From: Tetracentron sinense
Lineage: Eukaryota > Streptophyta > Magnoliopsida > Trochodendrales > Trochodendraceae
DNA: 64,000 nt
Direction of reading: 5' to 3'
NCBI GenBank assembly: GCA_015143295.1
Contig: CM026554.1
Coordinates: 49,846,627-49,910,626 of the forward strand
The position numbers were made by a program, and so were the translations under genes. Shown piece by piece: positions 12,669-63,710 of this stretch. Under the pieces are notes generated by a model that saw nothing but the letters and a program-made list of their open reading frames with translations, searched no databases and was not told the DNA's origin. Each line of letters begins with the position of its first letter. Positions within the stretch are counted from its first letter, which is position 1.

Positions 12669-12890
12669 CGCATTAGACTATGTAGTCTAATGCCATGGTC
12701 ATGTGTCCCTGTAACACTCCTTTAACTATGGTTAAGCTTAAGAAAATTAAAGTTAATATTTTCATTATTAAAAACTAAGGTTAGATTGCTTAACCTTAGG
12801 AGTGAGTAAATCTTAACTACAATTGATGTGTGGTAAAAAGGAGGGCTTGGACCAATGAGGACTGCATATTAGGCGACATAGTCTAATGCG
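12669..12890 (-). mobile_element. Core-sharing MITE, copy 1 (TIR type GCATTAGACTATG)
   Basis: A perfect 15-bp inverted repeat, CGCATTAGACTATGT, bounds 222 bp (12669-12683 and 12876-12890). Inverted, the interior carries the shared core GTTAAGATTTACTCACTCCT, AAGGTTAAGCAATCTAACC, TTAGTTTTTA, ending in TTAACCATAGTTAAAG and GGGACACATG. The same core recurs at about 13060, 13321, 43182, 49340, 54597 and 63421 behind other termini. Confidence 0.85.
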
Positions 12891-13059
12891 GCAGTAAGTT
12901 AAGCTTTTCCCTAGAAAAGATCATTTTTTTACTTTCTTAATTACCAAACTCCCATTGCCCAAGGATTTTTTTTAGTTGTTCCCTGTATCTTGAACCGAAG
13001 CTCATTAATCTAAAAAATATAAAAGTAAAATAAATGATCCTTTATACCAAATAAGTAAG

Positions 13060-13580
13060 GGAAATGGAAAACGAACCGCAAGGTCACCGCGTGATCTCAT
13101 TGGTCCACACCCCGTTTTACCACCCATCAATTGTGGTTAAGATTCACTCACTCCTAGGGTTAAGCAATCAAACCATGGTTTTTACAAAAAAAAAAATTTA
13201 GAACGTTAATTTAGTAAGCTTAACCATGGTTAGAGAAGAGTTAAAAGGGACATGTGGACACTGCGTTCAGCTTAGAAGCGAAGCGAATGGTCCACTTCTC
13301 AAGACTGAGTAAGGGAAATGGAAAATGGACCACAGGGTCAGCTCAGATGTTGACCACGTGATCTCATTGGTCCACGCCCGCTTTTACCTCCCATCATTTG
13401 TGGTTAAGATTCATTCACCCCCTAAGGTTAAGCAATCTAACCCGGATTTTTAGAGATAAAAAACAAAACAAAATTATTAACTTTAATTTAGTAAGCTTAA
13501 CCATGATTAAAGATGTGTTAAAAAAGACACGGGAACACTGCGGTCAGCTTAGAAGCGGACCCTACGGTCTGCTTCTTAGG
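13060..13580 (+). mobile_element. Core-sharing MITEs, copies 2 and 3, head to tail
   Basis: Two copies follow each other directly (about 13060-13305 and 13321-13580), each opening with TAAGGGAAATGGAAAA just upstream. Both contain GATCTCATTGGTCCAC, the core GTGGTTAAGATTCA, GGTTAAGCAATC and TTTAGTAAGCTTAACCATG. In copy 3 GGACCACAGGGTC at the left pairs with GGACCCTACGGTC at the right. The tandem order suggests local duplication, or insertion of one copy beside another. Confidence 0.8.
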
Positions 13581-13589
13581 ACTCCATAA

Positions 13590-14650
13590 GTAACACTCCC
13601 TCTGATTGGTTGAAATTTCGGTTGTGTTGTGACAATCTACGCACTCTCCCAAGCAATGATTTCATAATCCTACTGGAGGTCAAACCGTTAGGTCTCTAGC
13701 TCGACCAACCCGATTGAACCGTGAACTTTTATCTTTAAAAATATAACTTTTCTTTATTTTGGCCGGGTTCTTACAGTTTTCTTGGGTTTTCCTGGTTATA
13801 TAATTGGTCTTTAGGTTGAACCGGTCAGTTTTTCAGTTTCATATTATTTTAAGAGTTGTTTTTGAAAGAGCCCAATTTTGTGATTTTAGGGATTGCTTGA
13901 CTAGCCGGTTCTGATTTTATTGGTTCAATTGGCCGATCCGGTCCGATTTTCAAATCCCAAGCTCATAGTAACACATACCAACTAACCATGATCAATATGG
14001 AGGGAAAAGGTAGCTTTTGATAACGGGCAATGTTCATGTACTTCTACCATGCCATGGATCCTATTAATGGGCCTCTCCTGGGTGGCCCACTATATTATCA
14101 GAGAAGTTTAGCCAGCGATGAGGGCATGCTTCCAACGAGTTGTATTTAGAATTACGGGACCTATGGTGAGAGGATAGAGCAGACCTCTCTACTAGTGTAG
14201 GGCTTGCTTTCGGACTTTTAGCTCGTTAATCTAATTTTGTTGATCTAGGAGTGACTCCAATGCTTTGAGAGTTGCCTCGCCAGAGAACTAGAAGTTGGGG
14301 CCGCCTCTATTGAGACTGTTTGTTTTGGGAGGGGGAACTTAGCTTGAACTACTCACATTGAGGTCGATGAGTGAAAAACTAAAGCTAGTAGCTCCCTCAA
14401 TTGAGGCAATGACTAAAGATTTAATGGAATTAAATTCTTTGCTTTGAGTTATATTCAATCCAAACCTATCATTTCCACTTATCTTTGATGTATTTTTATC
14501 CCTTGGAATGATCACCAATCTCTTTTATTGTTTCTATTGACTTAGAAGCATATAATGATACCCAATTCGAGATTCTGTCTTATGTTGTTGTAAGCTTGAA
14601 GCTTCCATGTGTTGTTGGTTGCTTTCACTTACTCTTATTCTATGTACTTT
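13590..14650. other. Intergenic stretch with a possible CCGGTT-rich repeat
   Basis: Bases about 13670-13960 hold several GAACCGGTC/CCGGTTC-like words in both orientations, suggesting a decayed DNA element. I could not define its ends. The remainder shows no gene. Confidence 0.4.
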
Positions 14651-14654
14651 TCAT

Positions 14655-15190
14655 TAGGGTTGTCAAAGGGCAGGTCAGAGCAAGGTAATGGTTAGCCCTA
14701 ACACTGCCCTTACTTATTAGGGCAAGAATCTAATCCTGCTCTAGCTCTTCAAGGCTTGGATGGACTAGGCTCTAATCTTGCCCTCAAGGGTTAGGGTAGG
14801 ATAGGGCAAAAAGGCCACATGACGGGAAAGAAAATCAATAATTTTTTTCATTTGAAATAACGAGATTTTTTCTACACCGAATGTCGACCCAATAAATATT
14901 TTAATTAATATTATTTGAAATAAATAAAAATAAAATACAAACTAAGGTTAAAATCAAAGTGTTAGGGATAATCACAATGTTAGGGTTAGAAAATTAGCCA
15001 ATTAAGATCTTAGGGTTAGGGTTTCAAAGGATTAGAGTTGGGACAGGGTTGGGATCAGCCCTAACCCTACCCTTACTTATTAGGGCGAGACCCTAAGCCT
15101 TCCCTAGCCCTTGAAGGGTCTTGATTGACTAGGCCCTAACCCTGTTCTAAAGGGCTGGGTAAGGCAGGGTAGCCCTTTAAAATTTTTTTT
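14655..15190. repeat. Interspersed repeat with an internally duplicated GGGC-rich block
   Basis: The block AGCCCTAAC...TTACTTATTAGGGC...ACTAGGC occurs twice in the same orientation (about 14692-14775 and 15055-15140). The left edge TAGGGTTGTCAAAGGGC resembles hAT ends of the TAGGGGTGTCAA type, but I found no convincing matching right end. Confidence 0.5.
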
Positions 15191-15746
15191 TTTTTGTTTG
15201 GATAGACCTACTCTTCATAGACACCCTTGCATTTTTAGCTTCCTTCAAAGTCTTGTATTCTGTAATAAGCATAAAGTATTTTCACTTTTCAATTATGTTA
15301 TAGGTATGCATTATTGTGACTTTTTTGTTACTCTTCATTTGCCCAATCAACACCACCATACATTCTAAACACATAAGAAATAATTATACCGAATAAAAAT
15401 ACCACTATAGAGGAGTGCTAACACTTGACGAAGACTTCCAAACTCTAACTCGCACGACAAATGTCATTGTTACTCTTTTAATAGGTTAAGAAAAACAAAA
15501 TTTTCAAAAAAAAGTAGCAACACATGTCACTACCATGATGAGAGTTGATGAGAGCTTGGAAGCTTGCGTCTAAGGTTAACATTTCTTTATGACAATAATG
15601 CAAAACAACATTAAATTTTGGGGATGATTTCAAAACTGAATCCCCGTTACAAACATGATCAAACTCTCCTTATTTTTACGCCTCAAACGGTTGGTACCCG
15701 TTTTGAGGAGTGTTTGGGTGAAACTTATATGGGTTGAGGGTGTTTG

Positions 15747-15782
15747 TGGAATGTGTGTGTGTGCGCGTGAGTGTGTGTGTGG
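15747..15782. repeat. (GT)n microsatellite, interrupted
   Basis: Alternating GT with a central GCGCGTGA interruption. It lies in otherwise unrecognised sequence upstream of EMB514. Confidence 0.85.
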
Positions 15783-16091
15783 TCTTCCTTCTAATGCCTG
15801 TAGCTTCACCTTGTGGTGTTGTTACCTTCAACAACAAAAAATAAAATAAAACTCTCCTTATTTTTCGTATCTAACCTTAATGTAGGCTACATGGACTGGG
15901 CAAGAAAATTCTAAATCCGAGTCCGGCCTACTCCGGGGTGGGCTGTGGCCTGTGGGCCGAGGCTACATTAGACATCAGCCTTCGTTTCAAGGCCCTACAA
16001 AACAAACGGACCATTAAGATTCTAAAAGGGTTTTAAGGGTTTCACTTTCACAGTCTCACTTTCACTTTCTCGAATTTCTGGAGCTCGGGAC

Positions 16092-17481
16092 ATGGCGGAT
16101 GAAGTAGTAGAAATCTCTGAGCCCATCGAAGGGGAAGAAAAGACAGTCCCAGATGACATGGATTTGGAAATCGAAGAATCTGTCCAAAACCCTAACCTTT
16201 CCGAAGAGAACCAGTTCGACGGAGGCGAAAAAGCAAAAGTTGACGATGATGAATCGTCCCTGAAGTTCTCCAATGGCGACTCGAAGCGATCGAGGGAGGA
16301 TGGAGGCGATTCGGAGGCGGAAAATGGCGTCTTGAAGAAGCAGAAGGTCGAGAAGTCCGTTGAAGAAAAACGCCTCGAGAAATTCGAAGAAAGCGAGGCA
16401 AAAGAAGAACAGAAATCAGATGATACTGTGAGTCTCGGCCCGAAGAACTTCAGCTCTTCAGAGGAGATGTTTGAGTATTTCTACAAGTTCCTTCACAACT
16501 GGCCTCCTAATCTCAACGTCAACAAGGTGACTGTCTTCTCTTTATTGTTTATTTTCATTGCAAATTATATGTTTGTTTCAATTCGGTTTTGTTTAGTATG
16601 AGGTTTTTTTTTTTTCATTAAATAATCGGAAATTCGAATTCGTTCGTTTCAAAATTACTATTTTTCTTTCTTTATTATACAAGTTCGCAACTTCTATTGT
16701 GGATTTTCTAGTTAATTTGTATATAATATGGTACTTGTCTGAACTACTCAAAAGATTGTGATTTTTCTTACTGGGTTTTGGCTTTTGATGCCTCAACGAC
16801 TTCTTCCTTCAAGTTCTTTAATGTTGGATCAAGTAAAAGATTCTGATAACAAGCTTAAACCCTTCCAAGGATTGTCCCTTGCTGTAGTACAAAGCTTAAT
16901 CCATTGTCTGAGTAAGACTAGATCTTACATCTTCTTCTGATTTTATTTGGCAAAGGAAGCAGTGATATTCCTTTACGTGTAGTTTACTAGGAGAAGGTGA
17001 CATTTCCCTTCCTTCTTGGCTAGGTAGCTTCATGTGGACGTGTTAACTAACACCTTGAGGTGTGATAATATGGTCCTCAGGGTGGACTCTGGCTTAAAAA
17101 ATGATATAGGTCTTTCAAGCTCCATAGAAGCTCGTCTGCAACTTGGGTATGGTTTGAGAATAGATTCATTGTAGATCTTTATCTTTTTACGAGATTTTAG
17201 ATTGTTAGATGGGTTCAAAAAAAAAAAAAATCCTCTGCATATGCCTTAATAATGGAAACCTATCCCCACAGCGTGGTAACTAGAAAGTATGAATAGTTTA
17301 CCTTGGTTGTCAAGGTTGTGCTCCTGGTCGTCAATCTTTTGTGATCTAGGGAGTTGTTGGAATCAGTGTTACCTAGGCACGTGGTACGGGTGTCAAGTGT
17401 CCAGGTGTCTAGGGGTATTCTGCACGACAAGCTCTGAAAATCCCAATACAGCGGCATAGACGTATAATTTTTTTCAAAATG

Positions 17482-17527
<46 letters not shown>

Positions 17528-22945: not shown

Positions 22946-23070
22946 AGGCTCCGTTTTTTGGTGGAACTTTTAAAAGTCCTCAACATCAATATTTTGAAAC
23001 AAGTGGCAAGAGTATGGAAGAGAGGAGAGTTTAGTCGATGATATCTCAGAATTATTGAGTTCAATTTACT

Positions 23071-23772
23071 TGGGGCCATTTGGATACACTTCCATTTTTT
23101 CTGTTTTAAAAAATTAGAAACGACTTTCTGTTTTCAATTTTTTTTAAGTAGGAAACACGTTTGACATTAATGACTGTTACTTGTTTTAAAAAAAGGAAAA
23201 CAAAAAACCACGTTTGGTAAATATGATTAAATAATTCAATTCATAGTGGTGGTGGTGATGGTGTAGTGTGGTGGTGGTGTGGAGGTGCGTAGTGGGTGGT
23301 GGTAGCAGGTGATGGTGTGGTGGTGGTGGTAGGTGGTGGTAGTGGTGGTGGGTGGTATTGTGGTGGTGGTGTTGTAGTGGATGGTAGTGGTGGTGTGGAG
23401 GTGGGTGGTAGTAGTATTGTGGTGGTGGTTGTGGGTGGATGGTGGTGGTGGTGGTAGTGATGGTGGTGGGTGGTATTGTGGTGGTGGTGGTATTGTGGCT
23501 GTGGGTGGTGGTTCTGTGGTGGTGGTTGGTGGTGGGTAGTAGTGTGGTGGTGGTTGTGGGGAGTGGGTCAGTGGATGGTGATGAGTCCATGTTTTCTATT
23601 TTTGTTTTTAAAATTAGAGGTAATAGAAAATTTCTATTACCTTAATTTTAAAAAAATTTACTACAAAATTTTAAAAACAGAAAGCAGAAACATGTTTACC
23701 AAACATGTTTTGTGTAAAAAATTTCAAATTTTTGTTTTTAAAAACAGAAAAGTGCAATCAAACGGGGCCTTA
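23071..23772. mobile_element. MITE with GGGGCCATTTGGAT ends and a GTG-repeat core
   Basis: Left TGGGGCCATTTGGATACAC and right, inverted, AAGGCCCCGTTTGATTGCAC form the ends, followed inward by long poly-purine/pyrimidine pairing around TTCTGTTTT. The middle is a GTG array at 23244-23585. Such GGCCCCGTTTG ends are common in plant MITEs. Confidence 0.72.
23244..23585. repeat. GTG-rich minisatellite
   Basis: About 340 bp of irregular GTG/GTGA/GTAGTG units make one strand G+T only over long stretches. It yields V/G-rich or T/H/P-rich frames on the two strands that are compositional artefacts, not genes. Confidence 0.95.
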
Positions 23773-24632: not shown

Positions 24633-25688
24633 TGTAGACACCCAATTATGCACGGCCATAGACTCATTTAACTCCAAGTACCAAATGATGAACTCAATAA
24701 AGTACAATCCGAACTCCGAAATAATCTGAGATCAAACCATGTTAGAGCCCAATTTAAGCCCAAATTAACTCAAGCCCGAAAGAGAGAAGAACGCCAATTA
24801 ATCTTAAAAAGGGATTTGCCGCTCAAGTAGAGAGAAATCACCCTGATTCGGTCGAGAAGGGTGAATTCCAATATCGAAATAAAAGAATAAAGAAAGAAAA
24901 AAAAGTAAATATTTAATTGATGAAAAGTTAAATTAATGGAGAAAGGTTAAAAGCTAACTGTCATTTGACTGATGGGTTGGGGGTGCCTAACACCTTCCTC
25001 GACTCATAAAAGAATCCCCGAACTGATCTTGGTTCTTGAACCGAGAGTTTTTGTTGTGGGTGACCAATCACACCCATGTTCTTGATTGGTGGCAACTCTA
25101 AGGTCTCGGCTTCTCATTAATGTGGGGAGGAGATCGACTCGAGTTGACTATCGCACAGCTGGCGACTTTGTTGGACTAGAGGGTTCAGGCCTTCATTTAA
25201 CATTTCTCCCTTAATTTAAATTTTCTTTTGTTTGGAGATGGTTGTTACTTAATTTTATTTCTGTTAATTACTACTTTCTTTATTTCATCTATTGCACTGT
25301 ATTGCATAGTTTGTACACTGCATTCACTACCTACCCCTTTGTCCGTATCCGGACCTACCCCAATTTTTGAAATTACGTAGTTGAGTGCCTATGGATAGCA
25401 TCCCGGAAGCGGCAACGAACATTCCAACCCAAAATATTTCAAATAAAAGAAGTGCACAGTTCGTGCATGAATGTTCCGTGATTGTGGGACCCTTCTAGGA
25501 GGAATCTATTCAACCTCGTGTGAACCCCATATAGAAAATTATTAAATCTCTAATTTTCTAACAATAGATGAAATGAGATTGATGACTTAAATACTTAAGT
25601 CTCTATTGATGGGCACTTGTTCAAAAGGAACCTTTTTTTAGCTAAAATTTCGGGAAAAAGAAATCAAAATTTTTGAGTCATTGTTAAC

Positions 25689-25960
25689 CCTAAGACCTCC
25701 GGGCACCCTACTTAGATGTCCTACCTCTATCCCGCCTTTGTGTTTTTTGCCTAAGTCCTACAGGTACCCTAGTTAGAGGACCTCTCCCGCCTTTATGATT
25801 TTTTTCCTAAGTCCTACGGGAACCCTAATTAGACGTCCGTCCTCTATCCCGCCTTTGTGATTTTCCCCTAAGACCTACGGACACCCCAGTTAGAGGTTCA
25901 TCCTCTATCCCGCCTTTGTGATTTTTCCCCTAAGTCCTACGAGCAACCTAGTTAGAGGAT
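25689..25960 (+). repeat. Tandem array, about four units of 65-70 bp, in gypsy leader
   Basis: The word CCTCTATCCCGCCTTTGTG with CTAAGTCCTACGG...AGTTAGAGG repeats about four times. Leader tandem repeats are usual in Tat/Ogre elements. Confidence 0.85.
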
Positions 25961-40019: not shown

Positions 40020-41160
40020 TTAACCATGGTTAGACTAGGCCCTGGTTGAAACCAGGGCCATGGTTAGACTCCCCACACTCCCAGATGCCTCATGTGCAAT
40101 TTCGGCCCCTAACTCTGCTGTTAACCATGGTTAAACAACCCCCAAAATATGGTCGACAGTGTGAGAAACAGTCTAAAGGAGCGACTTTGAGCCTCTGTGG
40201 GGTCCATGGCCTCCTCTTGGGCCCCACAAGGGCTCAAATTGTTTCCCACGTGGTAGGCTTCATAACCGTGGTCTCAGATCCTCTGGGGGTTGATCTCCGC
40301 GGTAAAATCGCTGCAAATTTTGAGAAAAATGCATTTAAAAAAAAAAAAATGTCATTTTATGTGAACTTCAACGGGGCAACTTTGGGCCTCCGTAGGGCCC
40401 ACACCCAACCTCCCCTTGGGCCTCACAAAGGCTCAAAATACTCCCTGCATGACAGGCTACCCACTGATAGTCTCAGATTCTCATGATTCCCTCGTTAACC
40501 ATGATTAAACTCACGTTAACTACGGTCAAAAAGGGGCGAAATGTTTTAGATTTTTTGCATTTGTTGAACTTTGTGAGGGCCTAGACCGGGTAGGAGGCCA
40601 GTCTAAGCCCAAGCATGGACCTTGGGCCTACTCTTGACTCTCCCTGAATCTTAACCATGGTTAAACTTACCCATGGTTAACCCTTAACCATGGTTAAACA
40701 TCCCATGAACTCAAACAATTCTGAAAAAATACCAAAAATTCACAAATATTCACTGGAATCCAGAAATGTCTTCTGTGACCACTTTCATTTTGGTTAGAGC
40801 CTTTAACCATGGTTAAACACTATGTTTGGTTAACTTTTAACCATGGTTAAACAGCCCTTAACCAGAAAAAATCTGGAAAGATGTTTAAAAATTTGAAAAT
40901 AATCTGAGAACCCTAAAAACGGTTCTTTTGGACCATTTAACCCTGGTTAAGACTCTTAACCATGGTGACCTCCCCCCTTAACCGTGGTTAAGCATCCTTA
41001 ACCACCGGAAAAAATCTGGAAAAATACCAAAAAAATCAAAAAAATTCAAAGAGACCAATAATACTGGCATTGGACTTGTTAACCCTGGTTAGCACCCCTA
41101 ACCATGGTTAATCACCTTTTTAACCCTGGTTAGCAACCCTAACCCTTGGTTAAAACACCA
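40020..41160. repeat. Cluster of TTAACCATGGTTAA palindromes
   Basis: I count five exact copies of the 14-bp palindrome (about 40121, 40651, 40683, 40803 and 40835) and about nine near copies, such as TTAACCCTGGTTAA and TTAACCGTGGTTAA, over 1.1 kb. Each half is GGTTAA, the core of the GT-1 element bound by trihelix factors. Confidence 0.85.
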
Positions 41161-43112: not shown

Positions 43113-43181
43113 AATTTGAGGGTGAGATATAAATGACTCTTATAAAAAGATGGTTTAAAAAGAAGACCAAAGGTTGTCGAA

Positions 43182-43531
43182 ATCGAATCACAGCCAATTG
43201 CGATTGAACTCAAGGAGAGTTCAATCCCATTCACAAGTCAACACGTCTCATTTTTAATCTTTGTTAACCATGGTTGAGATCTATGAATCTTTAGAGTTCG
43301 ACAATCTAATTTTAATTTTTAGAAATTCATTTTAAAAAAAATTCTACCTCAGGGTTAAAATTTGTTAACCCTAAGGTTAATTATTTTAATATATTTTCTT
43401 CTAAAAATCAAGGTTGAACCCTAAGGGTTAAGAAGTCTTAACGACAGTTAATTGGGATAAAAAGGAATGTGTTGACCTATGGGTACGATTGAACTCTCCC
43501 TAAGTTCAAACACAATTGGCTGTGATTCGAT
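43182..43531 (-). mobile_element. Core-sharing MITE (TIR type ATCGAATCACAGCCAATTG)
   Basis: About 45 bp of inverted ends: ATCGAATCACAGCCAATTG against CAATTGGCTGTGATTCGAT, continuing into GATTGAACTC/GAGTTCAATC. Inverted, the interior has the shared core AATTAACTGTCGTTAAGAC, CCTTGATTTTTAG, and TTAACCATGG on the far side. Length 350 bp. Confidence 0.9.
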
Positions 43532-43754
43532 CTCAAGGTTGCAACAGTTACAAAAGCTATGATGGATTGAGCAGTTGCAACTATTTGGTCCGATACACAA
43601 GACCCCTCAGGCCCTCACTCTCTCTCTCATCGTCTGATCCTAATCACCAAAGTTCTTGTATAGCTGCACGTGCCCCCAAAGAGTTGCCTAGTATGGGAAG
43701 AAATGCCTCTTTCACCCAAAAATTAAGAATCTTTCACCCAAAAATTAAGACTTT

Positions 43755-46681: not shown

Positions 46682-49600
46682 CTATTTATGCTGGACTGTC
46701 ATCTCAAGGACTGTACATTTGAGGTTGCTTAAGCTGTAATCAACTCGTTGGATGGGGTTTGAATCCGTTTTATGCAAAGAAATATCAGTATACTCCGACA
46801 GGATTGCTCTGAACTCATCTCCTGTGATGGTTTCCTCCTCCAGTAGCACCTCTACTAGTTTATCGATTGCGTCTCGGTTATTCCTTATTTGGGTCTTCGC
46901 AATTTCATATGCACTGTCTATAATAGCTCGTATCGACGAATCAATGTCTTCCGCTAGCTTTTCCGACATTGAATTTCTTGCTAGCATCCTCAGTACTACA
47001 TCACTGCTTTGTACTGCTGGATCAGTCAATGTCCATGGTCCGATCTCAGACATTCCATATGTTGTTACCATCTGGTAAGAAAATTAAACCCATTAATATA
47101 ACATAGAAGAATTTTTTTTTTGGTATTTTTATTCATAATTTGGATACCAGAAATATAATTTCCATGTAATGTACCTGTCTTGCTATCTGAGTGATCTGTT
47201 GCAAGTCCCCTGCTGCACCAGTAGTAACTTCTGATTCCCCGAAAATTATTTCCTCTGCTGCCCGACCTCCAAGACCTCCAACAATTCTAGCGAATAGCTG
47301 CTGCTTCGAGATGAGAGCTGGATCTTCGTCAGGTATGAACCATGTAAGTCCACGGGCTTGCCCTCGAGGAATCAGAGTGATTTTCTGTACTGGGTCATGG
47401 CCTGGAGTCAATGTCCTGTAAATTGCAGATCAATTACATGAACTTAAGGTTATTTTCCACCTTATTTTGCACTTTTCATCTACATTGTTATTCCACCTTA
47501 TGCTTGTGGAAAATCAAATATTACATGTTAATATTTATCAAATAAAATTCATATAAGTAGTTGTAAAAGATAGATTCATAGTCTGAAATCCTAAAAGATC
47601 CATGATACTTTTCAAGAAACTCTATTGAATAAAATATTAAAAAAAAAAATCAAGAACAGTATTAGGTAATTTTGTGCATCATATTTGGTGAACTTAAGCG
47701 CAAATGGCATGCCCAATTTCGTGATAAGCCACCAGGATCTTGCTCTTTCCATCTGTCATCTGGGTTCCCTCCATGCCTGCTACAATTCGGTCAATAGAGT
47801 CGTCGATCTCTCTCAATGTTATCTTCTCTTTGCCTCTCCTTCCGGCAAGAATGGCAGCTTCATTCATAAGGTTAGCTAGGTCTGCCCCACTGAATCCTGG
47901 AGTTCGCAAGGCAATAACACTGAGGGCGACATCCCTGTCCAGCTTCTTGTTGTAGCTGTGGACCTTCAGTATTTCTTCTCTCCCTCTTACATCTGGTAGT
48001 CCAACGGTGACCTGTTTAAGTAACAACCAAAATGTTCTTAAATTTTCTGATAATTGAGGTAAAGATCTGCATTAATTGGTCAAAACTTGAAAACATTGGT
48101 TATGTTATGTACTTGTTTATATGCTACTCATTAAATAAATTTATGGTCATACAAATTTAATTTCAGTATGTTAACACTCTTGTATCCCAATACTATAATT
48201 AAGGATAACAGACACGGTTATGGAGTGAACCAAGTCTATTCAGATAGTAACAAAATTCATGCAAATTTTAGGTTTTCCAAATTATTCTCGAATTTCGTGA
48301 ATAAATCATAAAAAAATGCCAATAATTCGTTTAGTTCGGCATATAAACTGGTTATTTTGTATATAATCTAATCAAATTATTGGATATATTTTTATAATTT
48401 TCTTTATAAAAAAAATCCTGAATTTTTCCAAACCCCAACATTATCACTATATATTTAGTGTCATTCCTGGTTGCATAGAGAATCATGAATCGCTTAGACA
48501 ATTTCATGCTTCTTAAAGAATCCTTCAAAACCCATATGATAAAAGTACCCAAGTAAGGCTCTACAGACATATCAGTCCATTCAGTTTCTTCATTAAGTGC
48601 CAGTGTCTGAAATGAACATTTCTAAGTTTTGAACCATAGGAAAGAGATGATAGCTTACCTGTCTGTCAAATCTTCCTGGCCTAAGCAAAGCTGAATCAAG
48701 AATTTCAGGTCTATTAGTAGCAGCAATGACAATGACTCCACTATTCCCACTGAACCCATCCATTTCTGTGAGCAACTGGTTCAGAGTTTGCTCTCTTTCA
48801 TCATTTCCTCCACCGATGCTCGTTCCTCGCTGCCTTCCTACAGCGTCTATCTCATCAATAAAAACCAAGCATGGTGAATTCAACTTTGCCTTGTTGAATA
48901 AATCTCTCACTCTTGAAGCTCCAACTCCAACAAACATCTCAATGAACTCTGAACCAGACAGAGAAAAGAAAGGGACCCCTGCTTCTCCAGCAATAGCCTT
49001 AGCTAGTAATGTCTTCCCAGTCCCAGGTGGACCTACTAGCAGAACACCTTTAGGAATTCTCGCTCCGACTGCAGCGAACTTCTCTGGGGTTTTTAAGAAC
49101 TCGACAATCTCCTGAAAATCTTGCTTTGCTTCATCAACTCCAGCTACATCGTCAAATGTGACTCCTGTGTTGGGTTCCATCTGGAATTTAGCTTTGCTCC
49201 TGTTGGAATTTCATGTGTATCAAGTGAGTATTAAAAGATTGTAAGAGTTCATAATTCTATATAGGCATACAGAAAGATATCATTAATTTTATAAACAACT
49301 AGCAGGTGGCACGTGCGATGCACGTGAGAGCGAGGGGAAGGAGTTAACCACAGTTAATAAGAGTTAAAAGGGACACGTGGGTGAGATTGAACTCTCCCTG
49401 AGTTCAATCGCCATTGACTGTGATTCTATTATTTAAATAGATAGATGAGGGTAGCTTGGGAATTAAAGTAAAACATTAAATTAAAACTTTGTTTTATATA
49501 AGGGTAGTTTAGGAATTTCAGAAAATTCAGCCTACCTCTACCTCTCCCATTATAATAGTAAAGATAGTATCTTTGCAGTCATGGGCAACTGTCTGAAATA

Positions 49601-51990: not shown

Positions 51991-51994
51991 AAAT

Positions 51995-52707: not shown

Positions 52708-52720
52708 CAAGCTATAAATA

Positions 52721-53424: not shown

Positions 53425-53643
53425 GACTCTTCCTAAAATACCCTTATGACAAGCTTAGATTTGGGAAAAGTTCATCTCAATATATAGGTCACATGAAACA
53501 TATTCCTTCCACGTTTGGACAACAAACAGACTTGCCAGATAATTTAAATGTTTCTTTCATTGAAGCTAACGGAATCTGAAAACTGACATTTGGAGTATGC
53601 ACCTGCCGGATCCTTTCTTTGTAGCTTCATTTTTTGGATGAAT

Positions 53644-53652
53644 AATATATAT
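53644..53652 (+). promoter_or_regulatory. TATA box of the S-like RNase gene
   Basis: TATATATAT lies about 90 bases before the ATG at 53739, consistent with a start of transcription near 53675. Confidence 0.6.
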
Positions 53653-53738
53653 ATGTCCTTGCCTATTAATACAGCCATCCAAACACCCATGTTGCAATAT
53701 CATCACAACTGAAAAGAAAAGATTCCACAGAGAGAGCC

Positions 53739-56047
53739 ATGAAATCCAACTATTCAATTCTCATTCAGATTTTCGTAATACAACTTGTACCAGTACTATG
53801 TGTTTCTCAAGATTTTGATTTCTTCTACTTTGTTCAACTGGTGAGTGAGAGTCTCATTATATATACAATCACTTGTTTTTCTCCTCTACATTTACATTTG
53901 CTTCTTCTAAATCCTTCTTTTTATTCAGTGGCCGGGGTCCTTCTGTGACACAAAGCAAAGTTGTTGCTACCCAAAGACAGGAAAGCCTGAATCTGATTTC
54001 AGCATTCATGGCCTTTGGCCCAATTACAAGGATGGCTCGTATCCGTCAAACTGCGATCCCGACAGCGGTTTCGATCTCTCAGAGGTACCCCTTTTCTTCA
54101 TTGTTCCTGCACTACTTTGAGGTCAAATGAAGCTCTACTAGTTGCCCAATTTAATTTTTTCATAAATTAAGATTTAATTCTTTTTGGCTCTAATGGTCAT
54201 TTTTTATTCTCAAGAACACCACAAGACAAGCTGCTGCAGAACCAGCCATTTTCTTTAATTTTCTTCTTATGCATTAGACTTGTAGGCCTACCCCTTTATT
54301 GAAGGAAATGACTTCTTGCAGAGGTTTTTCCGGAAACAGTCCCTTAAAATACGAAAAGAAGAAGCAATGTTCATGAAGAGTACAACTCACTCACGCAAAA
54401 ATTCCTGCAACTAACCAAACGCTTACATTTTAAGACAAGAAAGGGTGCAGTGTTTTAATAGATCTCTTTAACTAACTTTATAAATTAAAGCATATTCTCC
54501 CCAACAAGTAAAAATACAATATAAAACAAACGGACCTGTTTGCCTGCACGTCTCCCCAAATTCTTTATTTCATATTATGTTTTAAAGAAGGAAAACAGTC
54601 ACCTACTCGGGCCGAGGAGGTGAGTTACCGTCTCGTCCCCCCTTTTTGGGGCCACATGTCCCCTTTTTACTTCAATTAACTGCGGTTAAGAGTCGGTCAC
54701 CCCTAGGATTCACACATCTACCCTTGGTTTTTAGAAAAAAATTCACCACAGAAGGTGGTTAATTTTTTAACCATAGTTCAAAGGGTTTGTGAGAGCGAGG
54801 AGGAATAGTCCCCTCCTCGGCACGAGGAGGTGACTATTGCTCTTTAAAGAAACATGCGCTAGCTAATCTAAAGTATATTTTTCAGTTTTGTTTGACGTGT
54901 TTTAAAAGTGTTTTAAAAGTGGAAATCACTAGGGGTTTGATGTAGATCTTAACCGATTGTTATTGAATAATGCTAGCAAGACTCTCTTTTAAGATTTACT
55001 CTCCTTTTTATTTGTCCAAGCGTTGAATCAAAACAAAAGTGGAGCTAGCATTACTCATTTTTATTTAATGGGCTTCGATGATATTTGCTTAGAACACATT
55101 TCCATGAAAAAATGTTGTTAAACCTACATATTTTTGTGATTTGTGTGGGAAAGTACAGTAGTACACATACAAGTTTTGCCACGTCTCCCAAGGGAACTTC
55201 AGCTAAATCCATTTGTGAGCCTGGGCGTGCCCATACCAATCCTCCTTGCTGGGGTGGTGCACCTATAATTTGGGTTGAGCTCAGAAGAGACCACCAATCC
55301 CAGCTCAAATGAATATATTAGTCTTGATGAGAGTTCAAAACCAGGGAAGAAAAACAATTGTACTAATTATAAGAACTAAAAATTACCAGTTGCTTTAATT
55401 TTCTAAAAATCATTAACTAAATTTTCTCCATCTCCTTGTATCTGGTGGTATAGATCTCAGATCTAACCACTAGAATGCAGGGTAGTTGGCCATCGCTGGC
55501 CTGCCCAAGCAGTGACAATATGAAGTTCTGGTCGCACGAATGGAACAAACATGGGACTTGCTCGGAATCTGTCCTCAATCAGCACGAATACTTCGAAGCC
55601 GCCCTCAACCTTCAAAAAAAAGTGGACCTCCTCCAAATCCTCAAGAGTGCAGGTAATTAACATCCATATATAGTCTTACATATTTCCAATGGGTATGGTT
55701 TTATATTTAATTATCTTTAGGAGTTTCACTTACTATATTCATAATTGAATTTGGTGACAAACAATGTTACAGGAATTCAACCAAATGGGAGATTTTACAG
55801 CTTAAAAAGCATTGAGGAAGCCATAGAAGAAGCAACCGGGCACACTCCCGGGATACAGTGCAACGTTGACCGGTCGGGTAACAGTCAGCTCTACCAGATT
55901 TACCAGTGCGTCGACGTGTCGGGGTCGAACATTATTGAGTGCCCAGTGCTGCCAAGGAGGAGTTGCAAATCAACAATCGAATTTCCATCATTCAGAGGAC
56001 AAACAACAGATCTTTCTCTTCCTTTGGCATTTGCTGATATTGTATGA
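53739..56047 (+). CDS. RNS1: S-like ribonuclease, RNase T2 family (RNS1-like)
   Basis: The four exons are 53739-53840, 53929-54084, 55454-55652 and 55773-56047, all with GT-AG junctions, giving 243 residues. Residues 1-23 form a signal peptide (MKSNYSILIQIFVIQLVPV), so the enzyme is secreted or vacuolar. FDFFYFVQLWPGSFCDTKQ opens the mature domain. The two catalytic segments are present: CAS I FSIHGLWPN and CAS II FWSHEWNKHGTC, which supply both catalytic histidines and the glutamate. Conserved cysteines (CDTKQSCCYP, GIQCNVD, IYQCVDVSG, IIECPV) are in place. Family members cleave RNA via 2',3'-cyclic phosphates in phosphate recycling, senescence and defence. Most S-like RNases end at IEFPSF; here the frame continues 17 residues (RGQTTDLSLPLAFADIV). 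Intron 2 (1369 bp) carries a MITE. Orthology to RNS1 is by overall similarity only. Confidence 0.93.
54597..54835 (+). mobile_element. Core-sharing MITE (TIR type AGTCACCTACTCG) in RNase intron 2
   Basis: The ends AGTCACCTACTCGGGCCGAG and, inverted, AGTCACCTCCTCGTGCCGAG enclose the shared core CCACATGTCCCC, AACTGCGGTTAAGAGTC, CACCCCTAGG and CCTTGGTTTTTAGAAAAAA. Length 239 bp. Confidence 0.9.
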
Positions 56048-56794: not shown

Positions 56795-57165
56795 TTTTGA
56801 GGCCTAGATCGAAATTTTGAAATTTCAATCCATGCCTCAAAATTTCGATCCAGAATCCCAAAATTTTGATATATATTCTGAAATTTTCAATTTGAATGAA
56901 ATTTCGATCTAGGCCTCAAATTTTCGATCTGGAATTCCGAAAGTGGCCTATTCTCATTGTAACTGTTGATCTGGCATTCCAAAATTTTGATATGTATTAT
57001 GAAATTTTTGATTGAGAGGAAAATTTGATCCAACCCTAAAAATTTCGACCTGGAATCCGGAAAGTGGCTTATTATCACTATAAATTTCAATCTGGAATCC
57101 GAAAAGTGGCTTATTCTCACTGTAAATTTCGAACAGGGATTCCAAAATTTCGATATGTATGTAAG
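56795..57165. repeat. Tandem array of AAATTTCGATCTGGAAT-type units
   Basis: Words such as AATTTCGATCTGGAATCC, GAAAGTGGCTTATTCTCA and CAAAATTTTGATATGTAT recur at about 60-100-bp spacing, four to five times, with strong drift. Confidence 0.8.
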
Positions 57166-57308
57166 ACCTCAAAGATTAAGCCCTGAAAACATTAAATCTT
57201 TCATCTCCCTTAAATGACTTTTTTTCTCTCCCCTCATTGTAGAGTTTCTTCACTTTCCAATTTCTATTACTATTTATGTAATTTCCATTACTATTTATGT
57301 GTCTTCAG

Positions 57309-58062
57309 CTGGAGTAGAATATGCAAAGATCAGTGGTGCGGATATCTATCTATTTAACTATAAGCAACAAGGCAAGGATCCCAAGACCTCAAAAGAATAA
57401 GTTTATTACTTTAAATCTTTACTCATTCATAGTTTTCAACAGCAATGGATAGGTTCCTAATATTCATCTTTTTGCCATTGTATATATTCGATTTATTCTA
57501 TGTATATGGGTTTTGCATTGTTGTTTTCTATTACATCTTAATGACATGTTGTGTTATGAATGTCCATGTGGATGATCAATTTAAAATTACATACTTTCTC
57601 TTATTTAATCTCTAATTTTTTTTTTCCCTTTTTATTAGGATGTCTGAAGATTGTGGTTAAATATAACACTAAGCCATATTATAGGAAATCACATTTAGAA
57701 AATTCCAAGGTTTCTTTTAAAGTGACTATTATTTGTTACCTGTGGTATTTGATTATTTGAGGGTGAGTAAATATTTAAGGCTTTTGGCGAGAATTGAAAC
57801 TCTAACTTCTATTTGTTTTCTGAATTAACTGAAATTCTCAAGTTTTCAAAATCTAAATTAATTAATTTTTTATTTCTAGCTCTCTATAGTTTGTGATATG
57901 TTACTCACTTAGTTTAGAAAATTATTTTCATATATTCATTCTCTTTATACTATTTCATGTTTGAATCATAAGATGATAAAGTATAATTTATAATGTTTTA
58001 TAAACGATTTTAAAAGTTTAAGATTTTTTTTCAGCCCATTCATCGCACGAGGTGTTTACTAG
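57309..58062 (+). mobile_element. Helitron 3' portion with exon-like pieces
   Basis: The right end shows CCCATTCATCGCACGAGG, a decayed hairpin, then TGTTTACTAG (CTAG at 58059-58062) before T, a Helitron 3' terminus. No 5' TC end could be set. Inside are exon-like pieces: after TGTCTTCAG at 57308 a frame reads EYAKISGADIYLFNYKQQGK, and after TTTTATTAG at about 57639 a frame reads LKIVVKYNTKPYYRKSHLEN. They may be captured host exons from one gene that I cannot name. Confidence 0.5.
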
Positions 58063-58149
58063 TATATATAAATATATATTGAAGAGTGATCCAATCATCC
58101 AAGTTATTAATGTTTTTTTTTTTTTTTGCTGAGAATATCATTTAGGTAT

Positions 58150-58275
58150 ATTGTATCAATGGTTAGTGGTTAGCATGGGAGGGGAGCTCTTGCTACTCAT
58201 GGGGGATCCCTAAACCTCCATGGACAAGAGACCACACCCCTCACACTGGCGCAAGAGGCGGGGTGTATCCATGTT
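58150..58275 (+). repeat. SINE-like repeat, copy 2
   Basis: TATCAATGGTTAGTGGTTAG, GGAGCTCTTGC and GCAAGAGGCGGGGTGTA match the inverted copy at 43755-43900. A-box-like TTAGTGGTTAGCATGGG is visible. Confidence 0.5.
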
Positions 58276-58873
58276 ATTAATGTGAATAAGCCAAATTAGT
58301 TTTATTTGGTTAGAGTGATCCATAGTATTTATTAGAACAAGCCAAATGAGATGTTTTTTCTGTCAGATCTTGTGGTGGTGTTGTATTCAATTTTTTTTTT
58401 TAAAAAATCCATACGTAGGCCAACACACACATGGGCATATGAGACTTGGGTCCAACACATCTTTACAAAAGACACATCTTTACAAAAAAGGGCATATCTC
58501 ATATAAAGAGGAAGGAGTCTTTAGTCCCACATCGGTGCTCCCCTTGTGACTTACAACGATTTCAATTGTGGAGAGAAAAAAATATCAGAATTATCACTAC
58601 GCCTCTTCATAATTAAAGATTCCCATCAGCTAGAAAAAAACCCATCCCCACATTAAGCTCGAATACCATGAACTATATATCCGTAACATTTAAACTCTTA
58701 TTTTAAAACTTTTTTTAAAGTCCTCTATGTAGATGCTACATAATGATAAAGTTGTTAGCTTTGCATCTGCATCAGATAAATTAGAAATAAAATCATGGCA
58801 TAGTTATAAGAACATTGAAAGTTAAATTTAATATTAAGAACATCTTAGTTTTATAATTTTACATATCTAAAAT

Positions 58874-59834
58874 TATTAGGAAATATCCTATTGTAATAAA
58901 GTGAATGAGATACATTGTATCATTATCAGTGTATCTCTTCACAATTACATAGTATCAATTAAATTTGAATTTATGATTTGATTAGGTATGATTAGATTAG
59001 GATTATCTTTGAGAGATCTTTCTATATTAGGAGTCTTGGTATGAAACATCTATTTAAACCCTTTATGGGGTCATTGTAAATCATCCAAGAATTCTCAATA
59101 AATCAATTTTTCTTTATGGTATCAGAGCGGGCGATCTGTTTGTATTGATTTTTTTTCCCTTTTATTACGTGTTTCCGGCAGGCGGCATTGCCGACTCCTG
59201 TCGGGATTGAAGTTTTTCCATTCTCTTTCTTATTTTTTTGTCATCAAAGCCAACATAGATGTAGCATGGTTGGTTTAGTTTTTTTTTTATTCCTCTTTGA
59301 TGACTGTCGTAATAAGTGTATCTCCTTTTATTTTATTGAAGACCTCTCTAAAGAGAGTTTTTCTTCACATTGTAAATCATTCTTCGGGTGCTTTGGGGAG
59401 ACGATCATGACAGCTTGATCTAGTGGGCTACCGGATCCGACAAACTCATAAATATGAACGAGATGCGTCAGAGATAGACTTCACAGACTGGCGGTGACTA
59501 CTAAGCACGGATGTTTTAGCTCTTCATGCACAAAGTGAGTACTCAAGTCAAACCCATGAAGATTTTCAATCCACATGTGTTTGAGGGGGAATATTAGGAA
59601 ATATCCTATTGTAATAAAGTGAATGAGATACACTATATTATTATTAGTGTATCTCTTCACAATTAGATAGTATCAATTAAATTTGAATTTAGGATTTGAT
59701 TAGGTATGATTAGATTAGGATTCTCTTTGAGAGATCTTTCTATATTAGGAGTCTTGGCATGAAACATCTATTTAAACCCTTTATGGGGTCATTGTAAATC
59801 ATCCAAGAATTCTCAATAAATCAATTTCTCTTTA
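58874..59834 (+). mobile_element. TRIM: miniature copia-type LTR element, looks whole
   Basis: Two 243-bp LTRs (58874-59116 and 59592-59834) start TATTAGGAAATATCC and end TTCTTTA or CTCTTTA. A primer-binding site TGGTATCAGAGC for initiator tRNA-Met follows the first, and a purine tract TTGAGGGGGAA precedes the second. A perfect 5-bp duplication, aaaat, flanks the whole (58869-58873 and 59835-59839). The 475-bp interior has no coding capacity. The LTRs differ at about 9 of 243 positions (3.7 percent), so insertion is fairly recent, on the order of one to a few million years at usual plant rates. Confidence 0.93.
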
Positions 59835-59925
59835 AAAATAACATATTAGCTTTTGTATTATAATCCGTTGCATCCGGATAGCCATTCTTTGACCCTATCC
59901 AATTATAAAAGAGGAATGCTAGCCC

Positions 59926-60091
59926 CAGTCTCAACATTCAATTTTTTTTCCAAAGGCGCAAGGTGGTAGCAAGGCATGTCTACCAAAAACAAAAAAAAAA
60001 ATTGTTTCACTGTTTCTCAAGGTAATAGGTTAATGTAGCGACACTCGTCGCTACCATGTTAAGACTTTGGTAGTCTGAGACTGGGTTAGAA
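59926..60091. mobile_element. Probable MITE with CTARCCCAGTCTCA ends
   Basis: Left GCTAGCCCCAGTCTCAACAT and right, inverted, TCTAACCCAGTCTCAGACTA. The right half has GTAGCGACACTCGTCGCTAC, a perfect 20-bp palindrome. Confidence 0.6.
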
Positions 60092-60587
60092 TTTTTTATT
60101 AGGGTTAATTACATATTAAAACCTCTTATGGCACAATGACATATAAGTGCCTTCTTTTAAATAATTACCTTAAGTAGACCTGATTATCAAAATAGTGGGC
60201 AGAGAAAGACCTACCGTCTAATTCAGCAAAGACCGGTTAATAAAATCACTTTAAATGACAAAACCACCCTCCATATAACCACTTTGTTCGTTCTCTTCTA
60301 AGAAGCCCTCATCATGTTTGGTTGCTGAGAAAATAGGTGAAAATACATAAAAGAAAAGAAAATTTTATATTTTTAATACAATTCTTAGCTATGTTTTTTC
60401 TATTCACTAATTTTCTCGGCAAGGTAAAGGTCGCTCTTGGATCAACATGGCGAGAAACTATCCCTACTCTCTGGGATCGGCATGGCGGCATTAAAGTTGG
60501 GGACTTCATGAGACTTGAGCATAGACACTCGTCCCTCCTTATCAGTATCAGATCGAGAACGTGAAGTAGAACTAGCTTGATTGTCCT

Positions 60588-60702
60588 TCTCAACTTCTCG
60601 ACCTAGATTTCTCCGACCTCGACTCCTTACAGGCCTTCCGTGTTGAAGGCTCCGACAAGTCCGCCAATCGTATCTTTCATATCGTCGGAAATTTCTTTCC
60701 AG
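60588..60702 (+). pseudogene. SEC14/CRAL-TRIO-like exon fragment
   Basis: One frame reads SQLLDLDFSDLDSLQAFRVE, GSDKSANRIFHIVGNFFPG, resembling the first exon of plant SEC14-type (CRAL-TRIO) proteins with the pattern FKVQGRDKRGRKILRIVGKFFPA. A TAG lies just upstream in frame and there is no ATG, so this is a fragment or a degraded exon. No other part of the gene is seen nearby. Confidence 0.4.
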
Positions 60703-60709
60703 GTCTCCT

Positions 60710-61829
60710 TTTCTACCCTATAAATTCTTCTTAATTCTCTCATCGTCGTTTTCTTTTGGGAGTTAAAATTCAAGCTCATGTATGTTTATATTGATAGATA
60801 ATCTTTTTAACATGTTTTGTAGATAATCTATTTAAATGTTTGAGAGAATAAGGAGATTATCAGTATGTAGTGAGTTTTTTTTTTTTTTTTGAATTCTTTG
60901 TTAGGAACCTGCATTCTAGGATCTCCTCGTTAATGAGTTAAAGCCCCTTTTGATTGCATGACCACTAGGTTAAACTTCAAACTCTAGGGTGATAAAGCCC
61001 CTTTCATGCTCAATCTAAGATGATAAGCAAATAAAAAAAATATGTTTATACTGAAATTTTAGGTTTTTAAATTCTAGGTGCTCCATTCTTTATCTTATCA
61101 CTGTTTTTCAATCCTTTGTATTTTGTGCAATTCAGTTTGCACATGTCTAATTGGCATTAGTATTTAGCTCTTATTATTTGATTTTTAATATGATTGAATA
61201 TGATTAAACCCCTTTCATGTCCCTTACAAGTTGGGAATTAGCTTAGGTTTTGGCATTAGGATTTAGCTCTTATCATCAGATTTGTTAAATCCTAATGTTG
61301 ACCAAAGTCTAATTGCCATTAGGGTTTAGCTCTTATTATTTGCACATATCTAATTGCCATTATGATAAAGCCACTTTCATGCCCAATTTTGAGCAATTCA
61401 GTTTGCACATCTTCCACTTTTACAGAAGAGTCTAGTCACCATTAATGACCTGTATCGCTGGTAGAAACTCCCCATTACAAATACAGCAAAAAAAAAAAAC
61501 TCCCCATTACAAGCAACTCAACACTCAGAGGAATCTTGGATACTGAAATGCTCTTAGAACTTACTTGGAGACTCTCACGAGCACACACATTTATATACAT
61601 AAACAACTAAACAGTTCGATTATTCTGGACAAATAGGTTAGGAGAACAGGTCAAATGAGTTTTTAGTTAAAATAATCTTGTTACCAAGCTTGGCTGCTTT
61701 GATTTTTCTATTGATCATGTATTCTTATAAGAAAAGAACAATACCCATCCCCTTCATTCCCTCCATTTTATCTCATCTAATATGATATGTAATCATTCTT
61801 TCAAAAATATTTATCAGATTTGATATTGG
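60710..61829. other. Intergenic stretch, repetitive TTTAGCTCTTATTAT words
   Basis: TTTAGCTCTTATTATTTG-like words and CCCTTTCATGCCC/CAATTCAGTTTGCACAT words recur several times between about 60940 and 61420, suggesting an old local repeat. No gene seen. Confidence 0.4.
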
Positions 61830-62340
61830 TTGGAATCAAAATTTACTAGTTTACATTCATGTTATTCCGGTATGGAAGAGTATGAGGTTGACACAGGATT
61901 ACGAAGATTCTCACTCCATCTCTTATCGCGCACATGTTCTTGTCGTAGGTGGCAGTTGTCTGGGTTACCATGCAACCATGATGCTGCTGTTATCCTTTAT
62001 ACGAGGCGTCGTATAGAAGATTTTTGCAAAGATTGTTTCCATCTTTCTATATATAGGGAACAATCTGCTGATTTAATACATCTAATGCCGGACAAGACAC
62101 AATGGAGAGTTCCAGAGTCTGAATACATTATTGGCCCACCACATGAATGTCGTAGGCCTGGTAGGCCAAAAAGAATAGGAGACTTGATGATGATGATGAA
62201 GTACAACAAAGTCAAAAAGAAACTACGAGATGCAAACATTGTAATGAGTTGGGCCACAATTCTAGAAAATGCAAAAAATCTATTAACAATCAAGCATCTT
62301 GTACTTCTCAGGGAGGACCATTTAGTTCAAGGAGTCACAT
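61830..62340 (+). pseudogene. MuDR-type transposase C-terminus, SWIM finger and zinc knuckle
   Basis: The frame starts near FTSLHSCYSGMEEYEVDTGL and contains the SWIM zinc finger CSCRRWQLSGLPCNH of MULE transposases, then the usual IGPPHECRRPGRPKR linker. The next family element, a CCHC knuckle CKHCNELGHNSRKC, is present at about 62230-62272 but in another frame, so a frameshift lies near 62225. The N-terminal DDE catalytic domain is absent upstream. This is a dead fragment of a Mutator-like element, unlinked to the foldback Mutator element at 42498. Confidence 0.85.
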
Positions 62341-62384
62341 TTGAAATTGATCTCTTAGTACTTTCATATATGTTTTTTTGATAT

Positions 62385-63420
62385 TTACAAATGGGTGGGT
62401 AAGTGAAGGTTTTGTGATGAATGTTACTAATAGTTGGGTGGTTTTTGAGTTGGGCCACAATTCTATGGTTTTTTATATTTGAACAAAAAAACTCCTATGA
62501 TTGTTTAGTATGTTTCGTAATGAATGTTGTTATGTTTATAATGATTGTTCTTATGCTTATTTACATATGACCATGCAGGATTATTTAACGTGGGTGGAAT
62601 GTAACTTCCAAAGTAGTGGATATAGAAAAGCGGCGTGAAGAACATTTAGTTTAAATTAGGGCTGTATTTGGGCTGGGATTGGCTAAGCCCGGCTTAACTT
62701 GAATGGATTTAATCAAGGCCCGAAGCCCGGCTCGGCCCGAAATGAATTGTTTGAAAGTGCATGAAGTGATAACTTGGAAAAGACTTTTTAAGATTACAGT
62801 TCTGCTGATTTATTGTTTATGAATCTGGAAAAGTTCTACTGATTTATTTATTGCTTATGAATCTGAAAAATCGCAGTGTTTATCATTAGCCATGACAAAC
62901 AACATTCCAGGGTCAAGGCTAGCCAATCTACAATGAAATTAATATTTCAAATGTAAAACTTGTTCAAGTAAGTTGTCCAAGTCAATGCATCTTTCTCTAT
63001 TTGCAAGAACATAGAAATATAATAAGTTGTTCAGGTAAACTTGTTCAAATAAGTTGTCCAGAGGGATCAAGATGAACCCGTTCAAGATGAGCGAGTTCAA
63101 CATGAATGGCCTGGCTTGCCTTCCAAGTTAATCATTTCATAATCCATCTCTGAAATGATTACCGATCTTGATCTGGTCCTAATAAGAATATCCTCTTTAG
63201 CAGATTAATTGAAATGTGGACAATAGAAAATCTTCAAAAATATATAATTCAAATAGCAGAAATTCATGCAAGAAACAGAAGCCCCATGAGATAGAAAAAA
63301 GAAATATTTCACAATAATTGCCTCAATATAAGAACAAAGCTCCCAAATTTTCAGAGGGATAAAATATTAGGATAATCACCAAAAAAAAATCAAAAGAGAT
63401 TTTAGAGATTGATCTGTCTG
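62385..63420. other. Intergenic stretch
   Basis: Bases 62655-62750 (TTAGGGCTGTATTTGGGCTGG, AAGCCCGGCTCGGCCCG) look like one end of an hAT-type repeat related in style to 3631-4287, without a partner end. Otherwise nothing is recognised. Confidence 0.4.
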
Positions 63421-63710
63421 CTACTCTCCAGCGGACTAGGATTTGGTTTGGTCCTTGCTAGACCAAATTCGTATGGCCCTCGTCCTACAAGTTGACACGT
63501 GTCCATTTCAACACTCCATAACTGTGGTTAAGATTCACTAACCCTTACGAGTCAACCATGTAACCTTGGATTTTAAGAAAAAATACTTCAAAAATTAACC
63601 ATAGGAGTTAAAAATATCTTAACTACTGTTAGACAACAGTTAAAAAGACTGAGTGAGCCAGACGGTTTTGGTCTGGCACTCCAAACCAAATCCGATCCCT
63701 TCTCCAGTAG
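63421..63710 (+). mobile_element. Core-sharing MITE (TIR type CTACTCTCCAGCGG)
   Basis: Left CTACTCTCCAGCGGACTAGG and right, inverted, CTACTGGAGAAGGGATCGG continue into GATTTGGTTTGG and AGACCAAA. The interior has GACACGTGTCC, CTGTGGTTAAGATTCACT and CCTTGGATTTTAAGAAAAA, the shared core. Length 290 bp. Confidence 0.88.

Follow-up and report, generated by a model that had tools for sequence, protein, structure and literature searches.

We analysed a window of 64,000 nucleotides from the genome of Tetracentron sinense (contig CM026554.1, positions 49,846,627 to 49,910,626), in which a first-pass annotation had described seven short elements with one core inside unrelated ends. Our results suggest, with a probability of roughly 0.6, that these are Mutator-like miniature inverted-repeat transposable elements (MITEs) that keep a common half-core while their tips, on both arms, are rarely replaced and then amplify into families. 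The half-core was shared across end types, and elements with ends of types A, B, E/E5 and G were inserted as whole units with 9-bp duplications at their tips. One core lineage bears two tip types, B and G, each in both arms, and these are no more alike in local alignment than the tips of other families.

A half-core shared by unlike ends

The core had been described as an internal unit. It is conserved, but does not form a centre of its own. The shared sequence makes up the inside of each arm of a long inverted repeat, where a half-core of about 77 bp lies opposite its mirror copy, and an intact element therefore has two facing half-cores. From outside to inside, each arm consists of a start that is usually G-rich, the tip, a short spacer and the half-core, and an AT-rich middle separates the arm from its mirror copy. 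The arms are imperfect and measure roughly 100–150 bp each, and in several families the tip folds into a hairpin of its own.

We built a model of the half-core with 77 positions, starting from element E7 of the window (Table 1) and extending it in five nhmmer rounds on the window and 20 loci; the model was therefore partly trained on the window itself. The additional loci, numbered L009 to L068, were chosen by exact core words on contig C1 (L009-L048), by the A end (L049-L056), by the B end (L057-L064) or by the G tip (L065-L068), and since they were selected in this way, family frequencies in the sample are not genome frequencies. The results showed 269 half-core units in 337 kb from 57 sources and none in the reversed sequence. 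With E < 0.001 as the threshold for hits in the window, eight half-core units were found there, and the best match in the reversed window reached only E = 0.58.

We then compared the window sequences directly, with no model. All 15 pairs among six window half-cores outscored 1000 of 1000 letter shuffles, whereas only 2 of 66 pairs of ends of differing type were matched by 10 or fewer of 1000 shuffles. These two pairs joined the right arm of E1 with the left arms of E2 and E3; the 60-nt ends compared include the spacer CTCATTGGTCC, common to E1, E2 and E3, and both pairs involve it. These results confirm a shared core within unlike ends, and the similarity survived the controls with shuffled and reversed sequence. 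A likeness arising by chance or from AT-richness was ruled out by the reversed control and the window shuffles. As to end types, E2 and E3 share one, and that of the part at 49340-49432 is the one found in E4. E4 also departs from several of the core words that had been quoted, although it matches the half-core model.

The arrangement of half-cores was examined within 600 bp. Neighbours faced inward in 63 cases and outward in 32, and were in tandem in 62 and 21; the arrays of L012, L017 and L025, as well as neighbours from different elements, contribute to the tandem counts. Two satellite-like regions (L012:5832-6906 and L017:3745-5148) consist of half-cores repeated in tandem and inverted order, with periods close to 90 and 150 bp, and look as if built from the element arm. 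At 40645-41153 the window holds an irregular array with several copies of the palindrome TTAACCATGGTTAA, which falls short of the 0.001 half-core threshold.

Hairpins at the ends were assessed by a stem score. A score of at least 20 was reached by 45 of 157 non-array ends, by none of 471 dinucleotide shuffles and by 9 of 400 genomic controls. At a score of at least 18, the counts by end type were 20/33 for A, 16/26 for B, 7/9 for C, 1/5 for E, 1/2 for E5, 1/3 for G, 5/11 for K (AT-rich) and 2/43 for unclassified ends. By eye, the outermost word of A, B and G was found again in the hairpin, both inverted and direct. The left arms of the G elements L066 and L067 are without a hairpin, yet both elements have perfect 9-bp duplications, so a hairpin is not required in both arms. 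Of 225 ends, 76 had the motif CACRTG no more than 14 nt from the start of the half-core; a control stretch farther out had it in 1 of 225.

Target duplications and superfamily

We searched for target duplications in 33 elements paired by their tips, which covered types A, B, E/E5, F and G only; in this set L027 counts twice, L057 and L058 seem to be copies of a single place, and L013:7537-7689 does not qualify as a proper element. Of the 33, 14 were flanked by a 9-bp duplication with no more than one mismatch, against 0.97 expected and a maximum of 4 in 200 shuffles. These 14 elements comprised five of type A, five of B, three of E/E5 and one of G. Elements with such a duplication were 208–400 bp long. 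Words of 6–8 and 10–12 bp were likewise above chance, and the duplication length of 9 therefore rests on the perfect cases, namely E/E5 (L014, L017 and E5 of the window), A (L054), B (L059) and G (L066 and L067). Three further G elements were read, L066 and L067 with these perfect duplications and L065 with an 8-bp duplication out of register.

The elements are short, are present in high copy number and have terminal inverted repeats (TIRs), as MITEs do. The duplications were of varied sequence, unlike the TTAA of piggyBac-type elements. Mutator-like elements have 9–11-bp duplications and long TIRs, typically of 100–500 bp (PMC3310237). Our elements have long TIRs as well, weak at the tips in E2 and E3, and 9-bp duplications together with arms of about 100–150 bp fit this superfamily. 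These features point to non-autonomous Mutator-like (MULE-type) MITEs that would form one very large superfamily. MULE transposase domains (PF10551) were plentiful in the genome, with 150 scored of 1,282 candidates.

Abundance was assessed across the genome (1,161,278,568 bases in 1,479 contigs). An 18-base core word with at most two mismatches gave 126,289 matches, compared with 314 for the reversed word; this is not an element count, because one element can hold several matches and a near-palindrome may score on both strands. The A hairpin gave 11,249 matches against 0 for its control. The B hairpin gave 9,148 strand matches against 0; as this word is almost its own reverse complement, we count these as about 4,600 places. 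The G tip gave 2,878 matches against 9, and the F tip AAATGTTTAACTTACC gave 299 exact matches against 3 for the reversed word. A loose pattern for the hairpin words between F tip and spacer, applied to the sampled loci, also caught unrelated places.

End families and core lineages

We classified 225 unit ends. The results showed that 122 matched one of 13 end labels and 103 matched none, and 60 of these 103 contained core sequence, indicating arrays or nests. Both ends could be read in 39 inward pairs; both were classified in 25, of which 22 agreed, with labels derived from the same data. Labels D, I, J and K were not counted as true termini, and K belongs to an array. Label D is one-sided (L013:234 and 5799, L018:4237 and L021:4685) and looks like the flank of a host repeat that the element entered; empty copies of that repeat could therefore serve as empty sites.

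We placed the end labels on a tree of 86 half-cores, which was built from 76 columns and has few resolved forks. The labels required 21 changes, compared with 52.6 after shuffling (0 of 200 shuffles as low), and 28 of 29 A rows lay on one starred branch. End labels thus cluster on the core tree, which indicates that ends are not freely shuffled. The annotation had anticipated discrete end families around one core as a sign of modular exchange; the families are discrete, but they mostly follow core lineages. Supported branches with mixed end types were also found. On the 86-row tree, one joined two H and two F rows with a B-labelled one (99/84), and another held ten B and two G rows (100/89). 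On a tree of 46 rows, restricted to labels B, G, C, I, E and D, a starred branch held ten B and eight G rows (98/86).

A composite at L063:1500-1931 joins a B end to a C end across a duplicated core piece, with no clear target duplication. If recombination traded ends among cores at a high rate, such composites would be expected, as would the B-labelled ends seen on more than one core branch. However, the clustering of labels and the single branch of A rows are contrary to free exchange, and the composite itself is without a clear duplication. We therefore consider free exchange of ends quite improbable.

We also asked how closely tips and half-cores are associated. Among 124 tip copies, 101 lay within 90 bp of a half-core; one of the other 23 was at an edge, and 22 had no detected half-core, of which at least four were the weaker second arms of E1, E2, E3 and E5 in the window. 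The core might instead be cargo, picked up by several separate MULE families that each had an old tip of their own. Nested insertions and captures do occur, as shown by E6 in a Helitron-like repeat and by an A tip abutting a core in L009, and one A tip (L022:5945-6003) runs into sequence with no visible half-core. Against this, most tip copies lie beside a half-core, and the core is the inner arm itself, joined to each tip in mirror copies and not a single insert. Capture as cargo is thus improbable.

A probable tip switch between B and G elements

We compared four G elements (L013, L065, L066 and L067) with four B elements that share their branch (L014, L020, L060 and L064) and with two B-tipped elements treated as outside that branch (L027 and L038). 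With all arms included, half-core identity was 0.93 for G-G, 0.82 for B-G and 0.85 for B-B, and that of B or G to the outsiders was 0.72–0.73. Tip identity, measured in 15 of 20 arms, was 0.87 for G-G, 0.62 for B-G, 0.89 for B-B and 0.85 for B with the outsiders; the five arms left out were short, hairpinless or misregistered (the left arms of L013, L066, L067, L064 and L038). The outsiders thus combine a distant core with a B tip and the G elements a near core with another tip, so the orders of tip and core disagree. When the short and misregistered arms were included, the values were 0.79 (B-G), 0.77 (B-B) and 0.93 (G-G) for half-cores, and 0.55 (B-G, versus 0.52), 0.80 (B-B) and 0.69 (G-G) for tips.

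Local alignment gave a mean score of 12.2 for G-B tips, within the range of five other family pairs (10.3–14.9), compared with 72.8 for B-B. In an alignment of one G element with six B elements, the interiors were continuous and the tips diverged past matching points in both arms. The sampled G tips ran into half-core sequence, of which L068 retains no more than a truncated piece. The difference in tips between branches of the family suggests that its tips can be replaced and still function. A second case, less fully supported, is E1 against E2 and E3 in the window, which align with L047, L015 and L009 across the interior while the ends are unlike. The claim that the core is kept while the ends are replaced is therefore supported by the B/G lineage and less fully by the second case.

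Matching between the two arms

The annotation had also proposed, as an alternative, that the two arms change together by hairpin correction while the core stays under constraint. We compared arms within and between elements, using 10 A and 8 B elements. Arm identity at the ends was 0.785 within and 0.769 between elements for A (235 of 2000 re-pairings as high), and 0.808 and 0.812 for B (1235 of 2000). For the half-cores, the values were 0.780 and 0.773 for A (569 of 2000), and 0.858 and 0.845 for B (273 of 2000). Arms within an element were no more alike than arms of different elements, and continuous hairpin correction is therefore not supported.

Covariation in the hairpin stems was then examined. 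The 33 distinct A hairpins had 7 cells changed on both sides, compared with 4.6 after shuffling (74 of 500 shuffles as high), and their covariation score was equalled in 50 of 500 shuffles, neither result being clearly above chance. The B set of 16 distinct rows exceeded the shuffles (0 of 500), and this set contains C-type rows with a different apex. Continuous intrastrand correction that both maintains and changes the ends around a constrained core would suit the form of the elements, which are nested palindromes, as well as the F-type hairpin words that match between the arms of E1 and of L047, the B covariation and the element L059. However, the arm identities and the A hairpins do not agree with it, and the B excess comes from a set with C-type stems. 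We regard such ongoing correction as highly improbable.

In inserted copies, between-element identity was 0.77 for both tips and cores of A, and 0.81 for tips and 0.85 for cores of B, measured on stretches of 62 and 45 nt. Tips and cores have diverged to a similar extent, which argues against strong host constraint on the core. Because the arms show no ongoing mutual correction, the matching tips seem to have been made at the founding of each family, with the copies decaying afterwards. A change of both arms at family founding is still needed. Among single copies, the hairpin apex is lengthened in L059, though still nearly a palindrome, and has collapsed in L062; with the composite at L063, these single cases show that hairpin-related changes and mixed ends occur, and provide no evidence of how families start.

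Proposed course of tip replacement

We propose that the half-core is retained because the transposase would require it in transposition, as subterminal binding sites, and that the outermost sequence would tolerate replacement. A new tip would originate rarely, in one master element, and would be matched in the other arm by hairpin copying between the arms or by recombination with another element. The new form would then amplify into a family, whose copies decay independently. A more specific version, in which both tips are replaced in one event, is rather unlikely. Here, with the arms of the palindromic element folding back on one another, a tip gained at one end would be copied to the other by hairpin-templated synthesis, and the half-core would be the transposase address and the tips a hypervariable module, possibly escaping silencing or switching transposase.

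Several points weigh against tip replacement. The B/G lineage is the sole switch in which target duplications support both members. Membership in the Mutator-like superfamily would follow from duplication length and arm structure, and no autonomous element with these tips was found, the ends of the transposase loci not having been read. The half-core trees are short (76 columns) with many open forks, and 43 of 157 non-array ends are unclassified. A stem score of at least 18 was reached by none of the ends scored for types D (4), F (7), H (2), I (6), J (5) and L (1). Finally, the G-B tip identity of 0.62 exceeds the 0.54 of letter-shuffled B tips, none of 300 of which reached it, and lies slightly above that of five other family pairs (0.54–0.58), and G and B tips have the short word ATCCTCT in common (a 7-mer local alignment). 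Given this slight excess and the shared word, the two tips may descend from a distant common ancestor.

This last point bears on another explanation, in which all tips derive from one ancestral tip and evolve much faster than the half-core while the element is mobile, the arms changing together. Besides the G-B excess, the sequence AACCGG..CCGGTT common to B and C hairpins and the likeness of E and E5 tips are consistent with it. However, G-B half-cores are nearly as close as B-B half-cores, yet the tips score as unrelated families do; B tips have been kept by elements with more distant cores; and tips do not decay much faster than cores in inserted copies. Fast divergence of the tips is accordingly fairly unlikely, and we prefer rare replacement of the tips around a kept half-core.

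Relation to known systems

MITEs with different TIRs around a conserved interior are already known from Acropora corals. These CMITEs are piggyBac-type elements of about 100 bp with TTAA duplications and 13–14-bp TIRs, and the authors of PMC2872659 propose a role for the internal region in transposition. Our elements resemble them in having differing TIRs around an interior that is more conserved between families, and in forming tandem arrays. They differ in their Mutator-type 9-bp duplications and length of 208–400 bp, in that conservation falls on the inner arm, present as mirror copies, and in the hairpin tips of several families; their copy number is far above that in the portion of the CMITE table compared. 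Tandem duplication of TIRs, besides long TIRs and 9–11-bp duplications, is shared with the Mutator-like elements described in PMC3310237. In those elements, however, inner and outer TIRs repeat one another, whereas here the outer tip varies and the inner arm is common.

Correction of quasipalindromes by template switching would bring the arms of a hairpin, and inverted arms, into agreement through copying. The inserted copies here, by contrast, show no sign of such an ongoing process, and a literature search found no paper that links quasipalindrome correction with transposons. Nor was a Mutator-like case of the present kind found among the papers listed in literature searches, judged by titles and the starts of abstracts. 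The Mutator-like version with mirror cores and hairpin tips thus appears to be new.

The classification of MITEs rests largely on their ends. Should these be replaceable around a constant inner arm, classes based on ends would split one lineage into many families, and inner arms would be the better lineage marker. With thousands of copies for each of three end words, and with target duplications, the genome offers a natural experiment on which parts of Mutator-like ends the transposase needs and on how new TIRs arise.

Elements in the window

Table 1. Positions of the MITEs and of their half-cores, as matched by the half-core model, in the 64,000-nucleotide window.
Element	Position	Strand	Type and remarks	Half-core (strand)
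E1	12650..12911, limits approximate	-	MITE, F-type ends	12769-12841 (-)
E2	13060..13305, limits approximate	+	H-type ends, unit 1 of tandem pair	13112-13186 (+)
E3	13318..13585	+	same H-type ends as E2, unit 2 of tandem pair	13380-13454 (+)
E4	43179..43534	+	A-type, 356 bp, both half-cores and terminal hairpins	43252-43324 (+) and 43399-43465 (-)
E6	49299..49432	-	A-type end and truncated half-core fused to Helitron-like 3' end	49344-49372 (-)
E5	54590..54842	+	E5-type, terminal hairpin	54661-54736 (+)
E7	63421..63710, limits approximate	+	rare end type	63503-63576 (+)

E5 is flanked by a perfect 9-bp target duplication, TTTAAAGAA, at 54581-54589 and 54843-54851. E4, whose arms fold over almost the entire length, has a candidate 9-bp duplication with two mismatches (AAGGTTGTC / AAGGTTGCA). 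The tandem pair E2-E3 is flanked by ATAAGTAAG at 13051-13059 and ATAAGTAAC at 13586-13594, with one mismatch, and part of this word also lies between the two units. Because 40 of 3000 random placements gave a match as good, these flanking words are only suggestive of a target duplication of the pair. The two arms match weakly at the tips in both units (184 and 44 of 1000 shuffles as high for E2 and E3, respectively), indicating that the H end type is not a clean inverted repeat. E1 carries the hairpin word GCATTAGACTATGTAGTCTAATGC in its left arm and a diverged copy in its right arm, and its outermost tips are unlike. The end of E7 had eight matches in a genome-wide DNA search, itself included. 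By eye, no target duplication was seen at E1 or E7.

The 3' end of a Helitron is a hairpin followed by CTRR. In the repeat around E6, the hairpin CACGTGCATCGCACGTG is followed by CTAG at 49299-49302, and this agreement marks the repeat as Helitron-like. Of the 13 places listed, 9 have the hairpin followed by CTAG, including the copy in the window. This 3' end is joined to an A-type end and a truncated half-core at 49299-49432 in the window, at two places in L018 (about 2187-2420) and in L048 (about 900-1032); among these four junctions, CTAG is present only in the window. The Helitron-like repeat seems to have captured and copied a piece of the MITE.

Elsewhere, the window contains a 61/117-bp tandem repeat at 25688-25958 and a GTG-rich minisatellite at 23246-23580.

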